Positions 2,435 to 35,270 of a DNA stretch of 59,321 bases are shown here, piece after piece. The translations under genes and the position numbers were made by a program. Position 1 is the stretch's first letter. Each line of letters opens with the position of its first letter. The notes under the pieces were generated by a model. It worked only from the letters and a program-made list of their open reading frames with translations, was not told the DNA's origin and did not search any database. This DNA is from a virus. The stretch covers positions 1 to 59,321 of IMG/VR virus record IMGVR_UViG_3300045974_000359. One strand, 5' to 3'.

Positions 2435-2733
2435 TAAAAATAAACAATATTTTTACAGTTGGAGATGGTTATTATTCAGGTGAAAGAATTTTATTACTTT
2501 GGATTAATAAATCAAAAAATATATCTATGTTTGGTAAAAGATTTACTCAAGCGAATGGTAGATTAATAAAAAACAATAAAAGAATAAATGTTATTTTAGA
2601 ATTTTTAAAAGATGATGATTCAACTGATTATACCTTATTGGCTAAAATTGATTTGATAAGAAAAATAAAAAGAAAAGATTTAAAGGCAAAAAAAGAATAC
2701 ATTTTGCGTTACAAAAAACTACCAAAATTCTAA
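2431..2733 (+). CDS. Small basic protein between gp47- and gp46-like genes
   Basis: One hundred residues, rich in Lys and Ile, overlapping the nuclease gene by four bases (ATGA) and ending three bases before the ATPase gene. No family is recognised. The translational coupling to both subunits of the end-resection complex suggests it is expressed with them. No signal peptide or membrane segment is seen. Confidence 0.75.
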   Translation: MIKINNIFTVGDGYYSGERILLLWINKSKNISMFGKRFTQANGRLIKNNKRINVILEFLKDDDSTDYTLLAKIDLIRKIKRKDLKAKKEYILRYKKLPKF

Positions 2734-2736
2734 ATT

Positions 2737-4662
2737 ATGTGGCAACCAAATACGCTAAAGATTGAAAATTTAATAACTCATGAGAACACTACATTCAAAT
2801 TAAAAAAGAATAAGTGTATCATGATTTTCGGCATTAATTCTACTGATTCAGGCTCTGATAGTAACGGTGGAGGAAAATCTACTGTTTTAGAGGGTATAAC
2901 ATTAGCATTGACGGGTGAAACTAATAGAGATGTTTCAAAAGATGAATTTATCAGAGATGGTGAAGATGAATGTTATATTGAAATGGATTTATCTAATGAA
3001 GTTGGATTAGTAAATTCATTGACTATTAAAAGATGGTTTTTTAGAAAAAAATCTTCAAAAATAGAAATATGGGAAAATGGAGAACGAAACAAAGAAATAA
3101 CTTCAGTCAATGAAGCAAACAAAAGAGTTTTTGAATTAATAGGTTTAAATAAAGAGGACTTACTACACTTTTTTATGGTAGGTCAAGAAACAAATTATTC
3201 ATTTTTAACAGCTAATGATGGAGACAAAAAGGATATAATTTCCAGATTTTCAGACATAGAATTTATTAATGAAAAAATAGAAAAATTAAAACTTGAAAGA
3301 AAGTCCTTGGAATTAGAATTAATCGACAACTCCAGACTAATACAAAAGGTTGAAAATAAGATTGAGTTTTTAAACGATAGAAAAAATGAACTTAATGATA
3401 ATTTTGAAAAAGAAAATAATGAAAAAATTGAATCATTAAAATTAAAAATTTCTAAAGAGAAAAATAACAAAAAATCAAAGCAGAGTGAAATTGATGATTT
3501 AGATTTAAAAATTAAAAAATTCAATAATGATTTAGATTCATTAAAATTAGAAGACATATCTGAACTAAAAATAAAATTATCTAAAAACAACAAAAAGTCA
3601 AAAACTTTTGAAAAAGATATTGATGAGGCAGAACATACTATATCACATCTTGAGGCTATATATGAAGGCAAAATAACTTGTCCATCATGTAGTCATGAGT
3701 TTAATCCATCTGAGGATATTGAGGTTTCAGAAATTCCTACTTTAATTGAACAATCAAATAATATAATTTTAGAACTTACTAATCAAAAGCAAGTCGTAGA
3801 ACAACGAATTAAAAGTTTGAATGAAAAGATAAAATTAAATGAAGAAATTGAAGACAAAATTTCTGATTTAAAAAGGAAAATAAAAAGAAGTCAAACTGAA
3901 CTTGAAAGTTTAAAGGATGATTTAAAATCTTTTGATAAAAAGATAAAAAACATTGAAAGTCAGATTGAAGATTTAAAATCAAATTCTATTGATTCTGAAT
4001 TAGAAAAATTAGATTCAGATATAAAACAACAGAAAAAAGATTTTAAGAAAATAAAACTTGAAAAAGATGTTATTGATTTAAAAATTTTAGATATAGATTT
4101 TTGGATTTATCATTTTGGTAAAAAAGGATTTTTAACTTTTTTAACCAATAAGTCAATCAAATCAATTGAGGGAATAACTAACAGTTATTTGAAACAAATG
4201 AATTCAGAATTACAAATTTTGATAGATGGTTACACGGCTTTAAAAACTGGCGACATACGTGAGAAAATAAATATTTCTATAATAAGAAACGGACTTCAAG
4301 TTGCGAGTTTTAACAGATACTCAGGCGGTGAAAAAGGTAGGATAAAATTAGCAAATATTCTTGGACTTCAACATTTAATAAATTTGACAGCTAAAAATGG
4401 CGGTTTGAATTTTCTTGGACTTGATGAAGTTTTCGAGGGGTTGGATAGAACTGGTCAAATTGATGTTTTAAATATTTTAGAAAACTTAAAAGTGACATCT
4501 TTAGTTATCACTCACAGAAACCAACCCATTGGAGCATCAAACGAAATTTTCATAGAAAAAATAAATGGAATAAGTAGAATAGTAGATAAAAATTTTATAA
4601 ATTTACCACATGAAAAAAGTATCAAAAGCAAAATTAGAAAAATTAGAGAACAAGGCAAATAG
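2737..4662 (+). CDS. Rad50/SbcC-like recombination ATPase (T4 gp46-like)
   Basis: SMC-type ABC ATPase, partner of the gp47-like nuclease in DNA end resection. The split ATPase head is visible: an extended Walker A ending NGGGKST (about residues 44-49), the ABC signature YSGGEKGR (about 527-534) and Walker B FLGLDEVFEGLD (about 558). Between them lies a long Lys/Glu-rich coiled coil with a CPSC zinc hook at about residues 315-318, which dimerises the coils. At 641 residues it is close to gp46 and shorter than cellular Rad50. Its 3' end overlaps the resolvase gene by about 50 bases in another frame. Confidence 0.92.
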   Translation: MWQPNTLKIENLITHENTTFKLKKNKCIMIFGINSTDSGSDSNGGGKSTVLEGITLALTGETNRDVSKDEFIRDGEDECYIEMDLSNEVGLVNSLTIKRWFFRKKSSKIEIWENGERNKEITSVNEANKRVFELIGLNKEDLLHFFMVGQETNYSFLTANDGDKKDIISRFSDIEFINEKIEKLKLERKSLELELIDNSRLIQKVENKIEFLNDRKNELNDNFEKENNEKIESLKLKISKEKNNKKSKQSEIDDLDLKIKKFNNDLDSLKLEDISELKIKLSKNNKKSKTFEKDIDEAEHTISHLEAIYEGKITCPSCSHEFNPSEDIEVSEIPTLIEQSNNIILELTNQKQVVEQRIKSLNEKIKLNEEIEDKISDLKRKIKRSQTELESLKDDLKSFDKKIKNIESQIEDLKSNSIDSELEKLDSDIKQQKKDFKKIKLEKDVIDLKILDIDFWIYHFGKKGFLTFLTNKSIKSIEGITNSYLKQMNSELQILIDGYTALKTGDIREKINISIIRNGLQVASFNRYSGGEKGRIKLANILGLQHLINLTAKNGGLNFLGLDEVFEGLDRTGQIDVLNILENLKVTSLVITHRNQPIGASNEIFIEKINGISRIVDKNFINLPHEKSIKSKIRKIREQGK

Positions 4663-22977: not shown

Positions 22978-23235
22978 ATGGAAAGAAATCCTAAACCAAT
23001 TTTAGTAATCAAAATGCCTGCCTCAACAAGTTTGGCTATGATTCATCAATCTCATAAATATATTGAAGAAAAAAAGATTGAAAATGATTATCATGTTCTT
23101 ATTGTAAGTAATGGAAATAAAGAGGGTGTTGATATTGAAGTTTTTTACGACAAGAATATAAAGGAAACAGATGTTGAACAATTAAAACAATTAATAAAAG
23201 ATGGATTTGAAAGTAAGAGTAATAAACAAGAGTAA
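22978..23235 (+). CDS. Hypothetical protein, 85 aa
   Basis: Small alpha/beta protein lying between groES and dUTPase and overlapping the latter by 35 bases. No family recognised. Confidence 0.68.
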
Positions 23236-23674
23236 TTTAGAATTACCAAAGTATGAGACAACTTCTTCAGCTGGGTTGGACTTAAAAGCGTGCCTGATAA
23301 CCGAAAGAGAAAATGAACCAAACGTATTTGATGCGTATGATGAAATAATCGAAGTAGGCAAAAGAAAACTAATTAAGACAGGTTTGTTTTTAGAAATTCC
23401 TCAAGGCTATGAGGCTCAAGTAAGACCAAGAAGTGGATTAGCTTTAAAAAACGGAATAACTGTATTGAATTCTCCAGGCACTATTGATTCAGATTATCGT
23501 GGCGAAGTAGGAGTGATTTTGATTAATCATGGAGATGTTCCTTTCAATATTTCTCATGGAGATAGAATTGCTCAGATTGTTTTCGCTAAAGTTGAGCAAG
23601 CAGAATTGAAAGAAGACATAAATTTATCTGAAACTGAAAGAGGTGAGGGTGGATTTGGAAGTACAGGAAAATAG
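23201..23674 (+). CDS. dut: dUTPase
   Basis: Hydrolyses dUTP to dUMP and pyrophosphate, keeping uracil out of DNA and feeding thymidylate synthesis. All five trimeric dUTPase motifs are visible: [38 protein letters not shown] and the C-terminal [10 protein letters not shown]. The 157-residue length is typical. The start lies inside the preceding gene; no later ATG would preserve the first strand ([11 protein letters not shown]). Confidence 0.96.
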
Positions 23675-23763
23675 TTTACAAAGTTATACTATATATCGAA
23701 AGATAAAAATATTGAAAATAGAAATCCAAACCCAGCGGTGACGACTTTATGGGATAGGGTGGA

Positions 23764-23835
23764 TGCCGTATAGCTCAGCGTGTAGAGCACCAGAGACTAA
23801 TCTGGAGGTCAGAGGTTCAAGTCCTTTTACGGCAA
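23764..23835 (+). tRNA. tRNA-like gene with a six-base anticodon loop
   Basis: A complete cloverleaf can be drawn: acceptor TGCCGTA/TACGGCA (7 bp), D arm GCTC/GAGC, anticodon stem CCAGA/TCTGG, variable loop AGGTC, T arm AGAGG/CCTTT around TTCAAGT, discriminator A, CCA not encoded. The anticodon loop has only six bases (GACTAA) instead of seven, so the anticodon cannot be assigned. It may be a degenerate tRNA, carry a one-base error, or serve mainly as a processing site, because its 3' end abuts the tmRNA acceptor piece. Confidence 0.72.
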
Positions 23836-24188
23836 CGATTGAATTGTTTGACGTTTTATTGAAATTTTGTTTGGACACGGGTTCGACACCCGTCACCTCC
23901 ACGAATAATTGTTTCCATAATTATTTTGTGTTATTTGATTTGTCCGTAGTAAATAAACGGAATGGTGGAACGTTTACCAGAGTGAGAAAACTGGTTGACC
24001 CTATTCGATGGTAATGAGAATTGAAATAATTTACCGAAATTGGGGGTGAGTTGGTTTTGACAGCAATTAAATAGGTAGAATTTAGATTCAATTAAAAAGT
24101 AACTCCAAAAGTTATAAACCTTTTTGGTAACTCAGTACAGGCTGCTGCGTAACTAAACGAAATTAAAGGATGCGAAAAATCCTTAAAA
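23836..24188 (+). ncRNA. ssrA: Circularly permuted tmRNA gene (ssrA)
   Basis: The tmRNA 3' half comes first: T arm ACGGG-TTCGACA-CCCGT (23877-23893), acceptor strand CACCTCC (23894-23900) and discriminator A. The 5' half lies 140 bases downstream: GGGGGTG (24042-24048), then AGTTGGTTTTGACAGC, as in ordinary tmRNA 5' ends. The two acceptor strands pair over 7 bp (one G-U). A second helix joins 23854-23863 with 24087-24097 (TTTTATTGAA with TTCAATTAAAA), like tmRNA helix P2. Downstream is a short frame ending GNSVQAAA-stop (stop at 24150), a plausible degradation tag, and then a hairpin AAGGAT/ATCCTT. Processing of the 140-base spacer would give a two-piece tmRNA for ribosome rescue. Confidence 0.8.
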
Positions 24189-24191
24189 GAG

Positions 24192-24216
24192 GGGTAAATG
24201 AAAATTTACCCTTTTT
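24192..24216 (+). terminator. Rho-independent terminator after the tmRNA
   Basis: Perfect 8-bp stem GGGTAAAT/ATTTACCC with a GAAA loop followed by TTTTT. It closes the dUTPase-tRNA-tmRNA transcript. Confidence 0.92.
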
Positions 24217-33989: not shown

Positions 33990-34212
33990 AATTGAAGAGC
34001 AATTAAAACAAGCAACTAATCAACGTAAAATCTCAACACCCTTAAAGAAATTAGTAAAAATAGTTTTAAGTGGAGATACAAGGTTTAATTTAGTGTATTC
34101 GAGTAGTAGAGAGCAATATGTTACTTTAGTTTTTAGAGAAACATTATCAAAACTTACTTCTTCAATACTTTTGAAAAATGGTTATAAACAAATTTACTTA
34201 AATAACAAATAA
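33973..34212 (+). CDS. Hypothetical protein, 79 aa
   Basis: Basic, Lys/Thr-rich protein with no motif. Coupled to the following hypermodification-type gene by a one-base overlap. Confidence 0.66.
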   Translation: MEWKVKIEEQLKQATNQRKISTPLKKLVKIVLSGDTRFNLVYSSSREQYVTLVFRETLSKLTSSILLKNGYKQIYLNNK

Positions 34213-35270
34213 TGGGATATGCTGAAGACAATCCAAGGACAAAGCAATATTTGCCTGACGATACTTTAGATGTATGTGAAGAAAATTTACATCTATTCTT
34301 TAAAACAATGTTTGATAGACAAAACATATGGTTTAAAAGATTTATTGAAAAGAAACCTGCTCCATGGACAAAAGATAAATTTCTAAAGGACTTTAAATTT
34401 ACAAATGTTTATAGAGAACTTGATAGAAATTCTCAATTTCAAATAGAGAATTTTTTCAAAAATCCTATTAGTAAAGTTGACCGAAAAGAATTGATTTGGA
34501 AAATAATGTTTTTCAGATTTTTTAATCAGCCTGAGTTTTTCAAGTTCATAGAAAAATTTACTATGGATGCGGATGAAGCAGGTGCTTGCGATTTTTCTTT
34601 TATAGGAATGATTCCAAGATATGAAAGATTTAAACCTGAGGAACTAAAACAACTAATGGAAGCATATAGAGAACAAGGTGGAAATCCTTTTACTAATGCT
34701 TATTTAACAAACTCTCAAGCATGCCCAGGCAAAACAAGAGATGAATGTTTCGCATTTAAAGTAATTCCTACTTTACATTCATTAATTCCTAAAATATCAA
34801 AAACTTTATTGTTAGCAAAAAGTCCTGACGATATCATAAAATTACTTTTGACACTTCCATCAGTTTCTCATTTTATGGCTCATGAATTTTATCAAGACTT
34901 TACATATGCTCCAAGATACTCTGGAATAAAATTAATGAAGTTTGACCAAGATGATTACACGAATGTTGGACCAGGTGCGGAAGTAGGAATAAGATTGATA
35001 TTTCCAAATAGAAAAAATAAAACCGAGAAACTACAAGCAATATATGACTTGAGAGATTTAGCGGTTGATTATCTTGAGCAGTTTGGAGATTTTAAATATT
35101 TAGCATACAATTCAATATCAGGCAATTATTTAGTAGATTACAATAAACCTCAAATAACTCTTCATCAAATAGAAATGTGGTTATGTGAATTTCAAAAATA
35201 TTGGAAGATGCTAATTGGAGAGGGTAAACAAAGAAGTCAATTTCAACCAAAAACAATAATTAATAAATAA
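34212..35270 (+). CDS. Putative thymine-hypermodification enzyme (aGPT-PPlase/HMUDK-type domain)
   Basis: The N-terminal part matches the pattern of alpha-glutamyl/putrescinyl-thymine pyrophosphorylase and 5-hydroxymethyl-dU kinase helical domains: FFKTMFDRQNIWFKR, then PWTKDKFLKDFKFTNVYRE with LDRNSQ, and later the helix-turn GPGAEVGIRLIF. Members of this superfamily act on hydroxymethyluracil-containing phage DNA. That would imply modified thymines in this phage, but no dUMP hydroxymethylase or aminotransferase is in the window. The next gene is an FkbM methyltransferase. A different role for the same fold cannot be excluded. Confidence 0.65.
   Translation: MGYAEDNPRTKQYLPDDTLDVCEENLHLFFKTMFDRQNIWFKRFIEKKPAPWTKDKFLKDFKFTNVYRELDRNSQFQIENFFKNPISKVDRKELIWKIMFFRFFNQPEFFKFIEKFTMDADEAGACDFSFIGMIPRYERFKPEELKQLMEAYREQGGNPFTNAYLTNSQACPGKTRDECFAFKVIPTLHSLIPKISKTLLLAKSPDDIIKLLLTLPSVSHFMAHEFYQDFTYAPRYSGIKLMKFDQDDYTNVGPGAEVGIRLIFPNRKNKTEKLQAIYDLRDLAVDYLEQFGDFKYLAYNSISGNYLVDYNKPQITLHQIEMWLCEFQKYWKMLIGEGKQRSQFQPKTIINK

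Follow-up and report, generated by a model that had tools for sequence, protein, structure and literature searches.

A predicted circularly permuted tmRNA gene in a tailed phage of Bacteroidota, and its relatives in other phages

The window analysed here, the whole 59,321-nucleotide stretch of virus record IMGVR_UViG_3300045974_000359, carries a tRNA gene directly followed by a tmRNA gene whose two halves stand in reversed order, both on the + strand, as are all features of this locus. Upstream of the pair, in the window as in the related contig G001, lies a dUTPase gene (23201..23674; PF00692, 112.6 bits, and synteny). A conserved sequence, ATAGTTTACAAAGTT, located upstream of the pair at 23672-23690 in the window and at about 1277-1293 in L011 (G001), is a possible promoter candidate. 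The tRNA gene (23764..23835; RF00005, 55.4 bits) has an anticodon loop of 6 nt (CCAGA-GACTAA-TCTGG) and was reported by ARAGORN as tRNA-???. Its last base is 23835; at the very next one, the acceptor (3') piece of the tmRNA (23836..23901; RF04321 alignment, sequence and cofolding) can start. This piece contains a T arm (GGAC-ACGGG-TTCGACA-CCCGT, 23877-23893), the acceptor 3' strand CACCTCC (23894-23900) and a discriminator A (A73, 23901), after which CCA is absent from the DNA. It is followed by a spacer of 140 nt (23902..24041), which by its position between the two mature pieces is expected to be excised, and which harbours a structured module (23943..24003; model and descriptor) composed of the hairpin TCCGT/ACGGA, TGGTGGA (23963-23969), the hairpin ACCAG/CTGGT and TGACCCTA. 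The coding (5') piece (24042..24216, 3' end at approx. 24216; sequence, RF04321 and cofolding) opens at 24042 with GGGGGTG-AG-TTGGTTTTGACAGC and comprises the acceptor strand GGGGGTG, the D-loop-like TTGGTTTTGAC, a P2 strand, a tag reading frame (24105..24152), a post-tag hairpin with a GCGA loop (AAGGAT-GCGAAAA-ATCCTT, 24166..24184), which recurs across permuted phage genes, and, at its end, an intrinsic-terminator-like hairpin (GGGTAAAT-GAAA-ATTTACCC-TTTTT, 24192..24216).

The two pieces are complementary in an acceptor stem of 7 bp (GGGGGTG/CACCTCC, with a G3.U70 wobble) and in a distal P2 helix of 8 bp between GATTGAAT (23837-23844) and ATTCAATT (24086-24093), which is weak when taken alone. 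The alanine identity elements of an acceptor stem are G3.U70 and the discriminator A, and the window tmRNA possesses both. The preliminary description of the locus had placed the 3' half 140 nt upstream of the 5' half and had listed the T arm, CACCTCC, the discriminator A, GGGGGTG and the 7-bp pairing, all of which were recovered. Its P2-like helix is likewise present, with 8 instead of 10 bp; the start it gave, 23836, is a possible one for the acceptor piece and adjoins the tRNA, and its end, at 24188, has to be moved to approx. 24216.

The identification as a permuted tmRNA gene, also proposed there, was borne out by covariance models. When the whole window was compared with 4227 families, the permuted tmRNA model RF04321 (gathering score 47 bits) matched 23843-24152 in full (model positions 1-213) with 63.5 bits and E=5.8e-10, and the standard tmRNA model RF00023 reached at best 25.4 bits in the window, below its cut-off. 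The lineage models also stayed below their cut-offs in the window (alphaproteobacterial RF01849, 31.5 bits, cut-off 50; betaproteobacterial RF01850, 31.5 bits, cut-off 84; cyanobacterial RF01851, 24.1 bits, cut-off 70) and aligned to the tRNA-like part alone. Genuine alphaproteobacterial genes attain 108-148 bits, and the window, with 63.5 bits, ranks well lower. ARAGORN made no tmRNA call at the window locus and calls the tmRNA of the closest relative permuted. That T-arm-like and tmRNA-5'-like sequences lie side by side by chance, or through an assembly artefact, is barely credible: the incompleteness of the 59-kb contig is the only point in its favour, and it is refuted by the E value together with the relatives, the same arrangement recurring in the genomes of two isolates as well as in an independent contig whose terminase is 80% identical.

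The proposal that the phage infects Bacteroidota is supported by several features of the window. Shine-Dalgarno (SD)-like motifs precede only 5 of its 84 genes, and A is enriched upstream of the gene starts (67-75% at -13 to -11, 76% at -3), the pattern found in Flavobacterium johnsoniae, with A enriched at -13 to -11 and -3 (PMC6847099). Among named homologues, those in Chryseobacterium phage MA9V-3 (portal, 46%) and in Bacteroides phages (terminase, 34%) come nearest. Promoters of the type TTTG-TAnnTTTG were not significantly in excess in the window (7 vs 5.9 expected) and were therefore left out of the host evidence. The dUTPase was tried as a host marker and found uninformative, its best matches being a mixture of alphaproteobacteria and Bacteroidota (50-60%). 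A 5-hmdU DNA kinase domain (34212-35270; PF18723, 157.9 bits) suggests that thymine in the phage DNA may be hypermodified.

A terminase search retrieved five related contigs, with terminases 73-80% identical to that of the window. In G001, the same permuted gene stands behind the same odd tRNA (RF04321, 50.1 bits), and the gene order is that of the window (dUTPase - tRNA - tmRNA - w24382 - w25521 - RNase_T - terminase), plus extra genes; the 24382 protein, used as query, found no relatives. In G003, the odd tRNA is followed by a tmRNA gene of standard order (RF00023, 67.5 bits), the pair being situated in the same dUTPase-to-RNase_T interval, on the opposite side of the w25521 homologue. Such a standard-order gene in the shared interval, behind the same odd tRNA and with a related tag, looks new; the order in G003 may be the ancestral standard one, re-permuted or recombinant. 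Neither tRNA nor tmRNA was seen in G002, G004 (a fragment) and G005. With no tmRNA seen in these three out of five close relatives (the fragment included), the gene is dispensable. Among named phages similar to the window tmRNA DNA, matches were confined to the tRNA or the T arm.

The absence from three relatives, the low score and the missing ARAGORN call would also suit a decaying or non-functional copy, with an RNA that is unprocessed or inactive, or a decoy that sequesters host SmpB; there is a precedent in phage DS6A, whose tag-less tmRNA inhibits that of the host, according to a passage in PMC11915505 that cites it. We consider decay or a decoy improbable, as the tag frame, G3.U70, the T arm, the P2 pairing and the hairpins have been kept in the window, in G001 and in many other phages.

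The tRNA with the GACTAA loop is present in all three tmRNA carriers, the window, G001 and G003 (L011, 1414-1485; L004, 7726-7797, besides the window gene), and no other IMG/VR contig matches its exact pattern. Its acceptor stems are wholly different among the three, yet paired. A tRNA or tRNA-like element adjoins the acceptor piece in several permuted genes, and we infer that the acceptor piece owes its 5' end to the 3' processing of the leader tRNA. By eye, tRNA-like elements whose anticodon arm is missing or abnormal were noticed next to the permuted tmRNAs of L103 (before about 257), L025/L117 and L228 (reverse strand); the L103 element is apparently devoid of an anticodon arm, and the loop of L228 is long. 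Their sequences look as if they had been retained purely for processing signals.

A 5'-end pattern search of IMG/VR returned more than 100 phage tmRNAs among the matches listed. By regular expressions, most of these are standard, and at least about 17-18 IMG/VR contigs, for most of which no host was assigned here, are permuted. RF04321 scored above its cut-off in eight of nine permuted contigs tested, with L068 below. Two Bacteroidota phage isolates have a permuted gene as well, Maribacter phage Panino (PP540027.1; RF04321, 62.2 bits) and Chryseobacterium phage MA9V-3 (PV245944.1; RF04321, 64.7 bits). In MA9V-3 (L283), a gene annotated clpX (2539-3378) lies within a few kb of the permuted tmRNA, and all that Pfam recognises in it is a general AAA ATPase; the window has no homologue. 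Among 396 Bacteroidota genomes, RF04321 exceeded its cut-off in one, G251, where the permuted gene adjoins phage-type replication genes in a phage-like stretch of the chromosome and the genome has a standard tmRNA of its own; standard tmRNAs were present in 25 of 26 Bacteroidota genomes sampled. A phage-borne permuted lineage in a phylum with one-piece chromosomal tmRNA, as sampled, would amount to an independent origin.

The window tag, PKVINLFGNSVQAAA, closes with small hydrophobic residues ahead of a stop codon and aligns with GKVVNLFNNPVQAAA of G001 and with other permuted phage tags. It belongs to a recurrent type, GK(V/T)I..FN.PVRLAA, which differs from tags of hosts, GENNYALAA being an example. 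Translation would resume at CCA (Pro) in the window and at GGC (Gly) in most relatives. The tag of the standard-order gene in G003, GKVLTMPSMNAPMRAAA, resembles those of the permuted forms (0/500 shuffles against G001, G251, L062, L116 and L125) and shows no resemblance to host tags, some resume codons in this comparison having been assigned manually.

These tags bear on the possibility that the permuted form was acquired horizontally from alphaproteobacteria, betaproteobacteria or cyanobacteria and diverged afterwards. tmRNA genes do travel on phages: the gene of Melnitz is of alphaproteobacterial type, and the host of this phage is a gammaproteobacterium (PMC9004378). In Stenotrophomonas phage Marzo, a permuted gene reaches 119 bits. 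Against acquisition stand the tag type, which is common to the standard-order gene of the sister phage G003, the lineage models far below their cut-offs, the 5' motif TGGTTTTGACAGC, which is that of Bacteroidota hosts, whereas alphaproteobacterial genes have AGGATCGACG or TAGCATCGACG, and the T loop of the alphaproteobacterial genes, which differs from that of the window. We thus regard such a transfer as unlikely, though less so than a decayed copy. The Marzo gene (L276; RF04321, 119 bits) is of another type, lies between tRNA genes and has the tag end ANDDSYTVRIAA.

Five spacers (window, G001, L025, L065 and L105) contain the arrangement hairpin-TGGTGGA-hairpin-ACC; otherwise, the TGGTGGA module belongs to standard phage tmRNAs, where it sits within the mRNA-like domain. 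A model built from standard-form copies only, which is sequence-only because RNAalifold found no consensus pair, recovered the module in L065 (E=2.8e-4), L025 (3.5e-4) and the window (0.016), and matched G001 weakly (E=0.23), all in a search space of 179 kb. A hairpin descriptor, used alongside this model, occurred in five of 20 spacers against 0.006 expected from shuffling, the five representing approximately three independent groups. The occurrence of a one-piece-RNA module inside permuted spacers looks new. Simple tandem duplication was considered as a route to permutation and set aside, as it would not by itself bring the TGGTGGA module into the spacer. The spacers of L068, L103 and L134, inspected by eye, contain a compact pseudoknot-like motif (CTAAC-CCGT-cgc-GTTAG-t-ACGG) with variants in L100 and L125 and an apparent covariation of CCGT/ACGG to CGGC/GCCG.

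In 20 permuted phage tmRNAs, the pairing between acceptor and coding pieces was stronger for cognate than for mismatched combinations (p 0.004 and 0.002 by permutation), a result which, as the genes are related, is support rather than proof, and in which the window alone did not rank high. In G251, a change in the acceptor stem is compensated (GGGGCTG/CAGCTCC). What is shown for the window gene is its sequence, structural signature, conservation and gene order. With a probability of roughly 85%, we read the locus as an ssrA gene that is circularly permuted and functional in a tailed Bacteroidota phage, and that would give a two-piece tmRNA through host processing. Probably, one precursor transcript would be made behind the tRNA, which the tRNA-processing enzymes of the host would free; the 3' end would be matured after A23901 and CCA then added, and a cut at G24042 would form the 5' end, with loss of the 140-nt spacer. 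The two RNAs, joined through the acceptor stem and P2, would be charged with alanine (G3.U70) and act with host SmpB, adding a 15-residue tag ending in AAA at stalled ribosomes. An SmpB gene was not found in the phages tested, so function would depend on that of the host. The phage would possess a rescue RNA of its own and may gain from it in that ribosomes stalled during infection are freed, the tag being different from that of the host. If Bacteroidota phages do supply a rescue RNA that has a tag of its own, a redirection of the fate of stalled proteins becomes testable.

Permuted tmRNAs have been described from three main bacterial lineages and from organelles. Three main bacterial clades are named in the paper on the models (PMC11915505), and permuted tmRNAs carried by phages are already known, the legend of Fig. 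5 in PMC9004378 giving three known lineages as shared with their phages. The preliminary description had stated that none was known from Bacteroidota phages. This holds for the literature that could be searched, in which no description was found and from which subscription journals are mostly absent, and needs amending for sequence records, two isolates carrying such a gene under the plain label tmRNA; the papers on Panino and MA9V-3 (PMC11590407, PMC13120357) make no mention of permutation. Routine annotation conceals permuted genes, since ARAGORN misses some and records read just tmRNA. Supplementary Table S2 of PMC11915505 may already list permuted Bacteroidota entries; as a set, the permuted tmRNA genes of Bacteroidota viruses are apparently undescribed.

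Whether they form a fourth, independently arisen permuted lineage we judge to be evenly balanced. G001 and G003 present both gene orders among related viruses, within the same interval of one phage group, and a folded module of the one-piece RNA is kept in the spacer, so that the route from a one-piece to a two-piece RNA would be traceable and a role of the spacer in processing is possible.

The closest known counterpart is the permuted tmRNA as modelled in RF04321, with which the window shares the order acceptor piece - spacer - coding piece, the acceptor pairing, the T arm, the tag frame and G3.U70. It fits none of the lineage models RF01849, RF01850 and RF01851, from which its Bacteroidota-like 5' motif and its tag set it apart, as do, from the permuted lineages, the GCGA-loop hairpin after the tag and the structured spacer. 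On the strength of these comparisons, the window gene is a predicted member of the permuted tmRNAs outside the alphaproteobacterial, betaproteobacterial and cyanobacterial lineages as modelled. A permuted ssrA that mismatches the type of the host lineage is likewise carried by Melnitz and further phages from aquatic settings (PMC9004378), but the Melnitz gene, unlike that of the window, is alphaproteobacterial in type. Panino and MA9V-3 are, like the window, Bacteroidota phages with a gene that is permuted by both RF04321 and ARAGORN, but their spacers are short, without the TGGTGGA module, and their annotation is just tmRNA. Standard phage tmRNAs (RF00023; G003 and Cellulophaga phage Calle_1) have a tRNA-like domain similar to that of the window and also the GGTGGA module; they are, however, ordered 5' piece - tag - pseudoknots - 3' piece, with the module within the mature RNA. 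As permuted tmRNAs are already known from phages, the window gene represents an apparently new lineage and variant, not a new kind.
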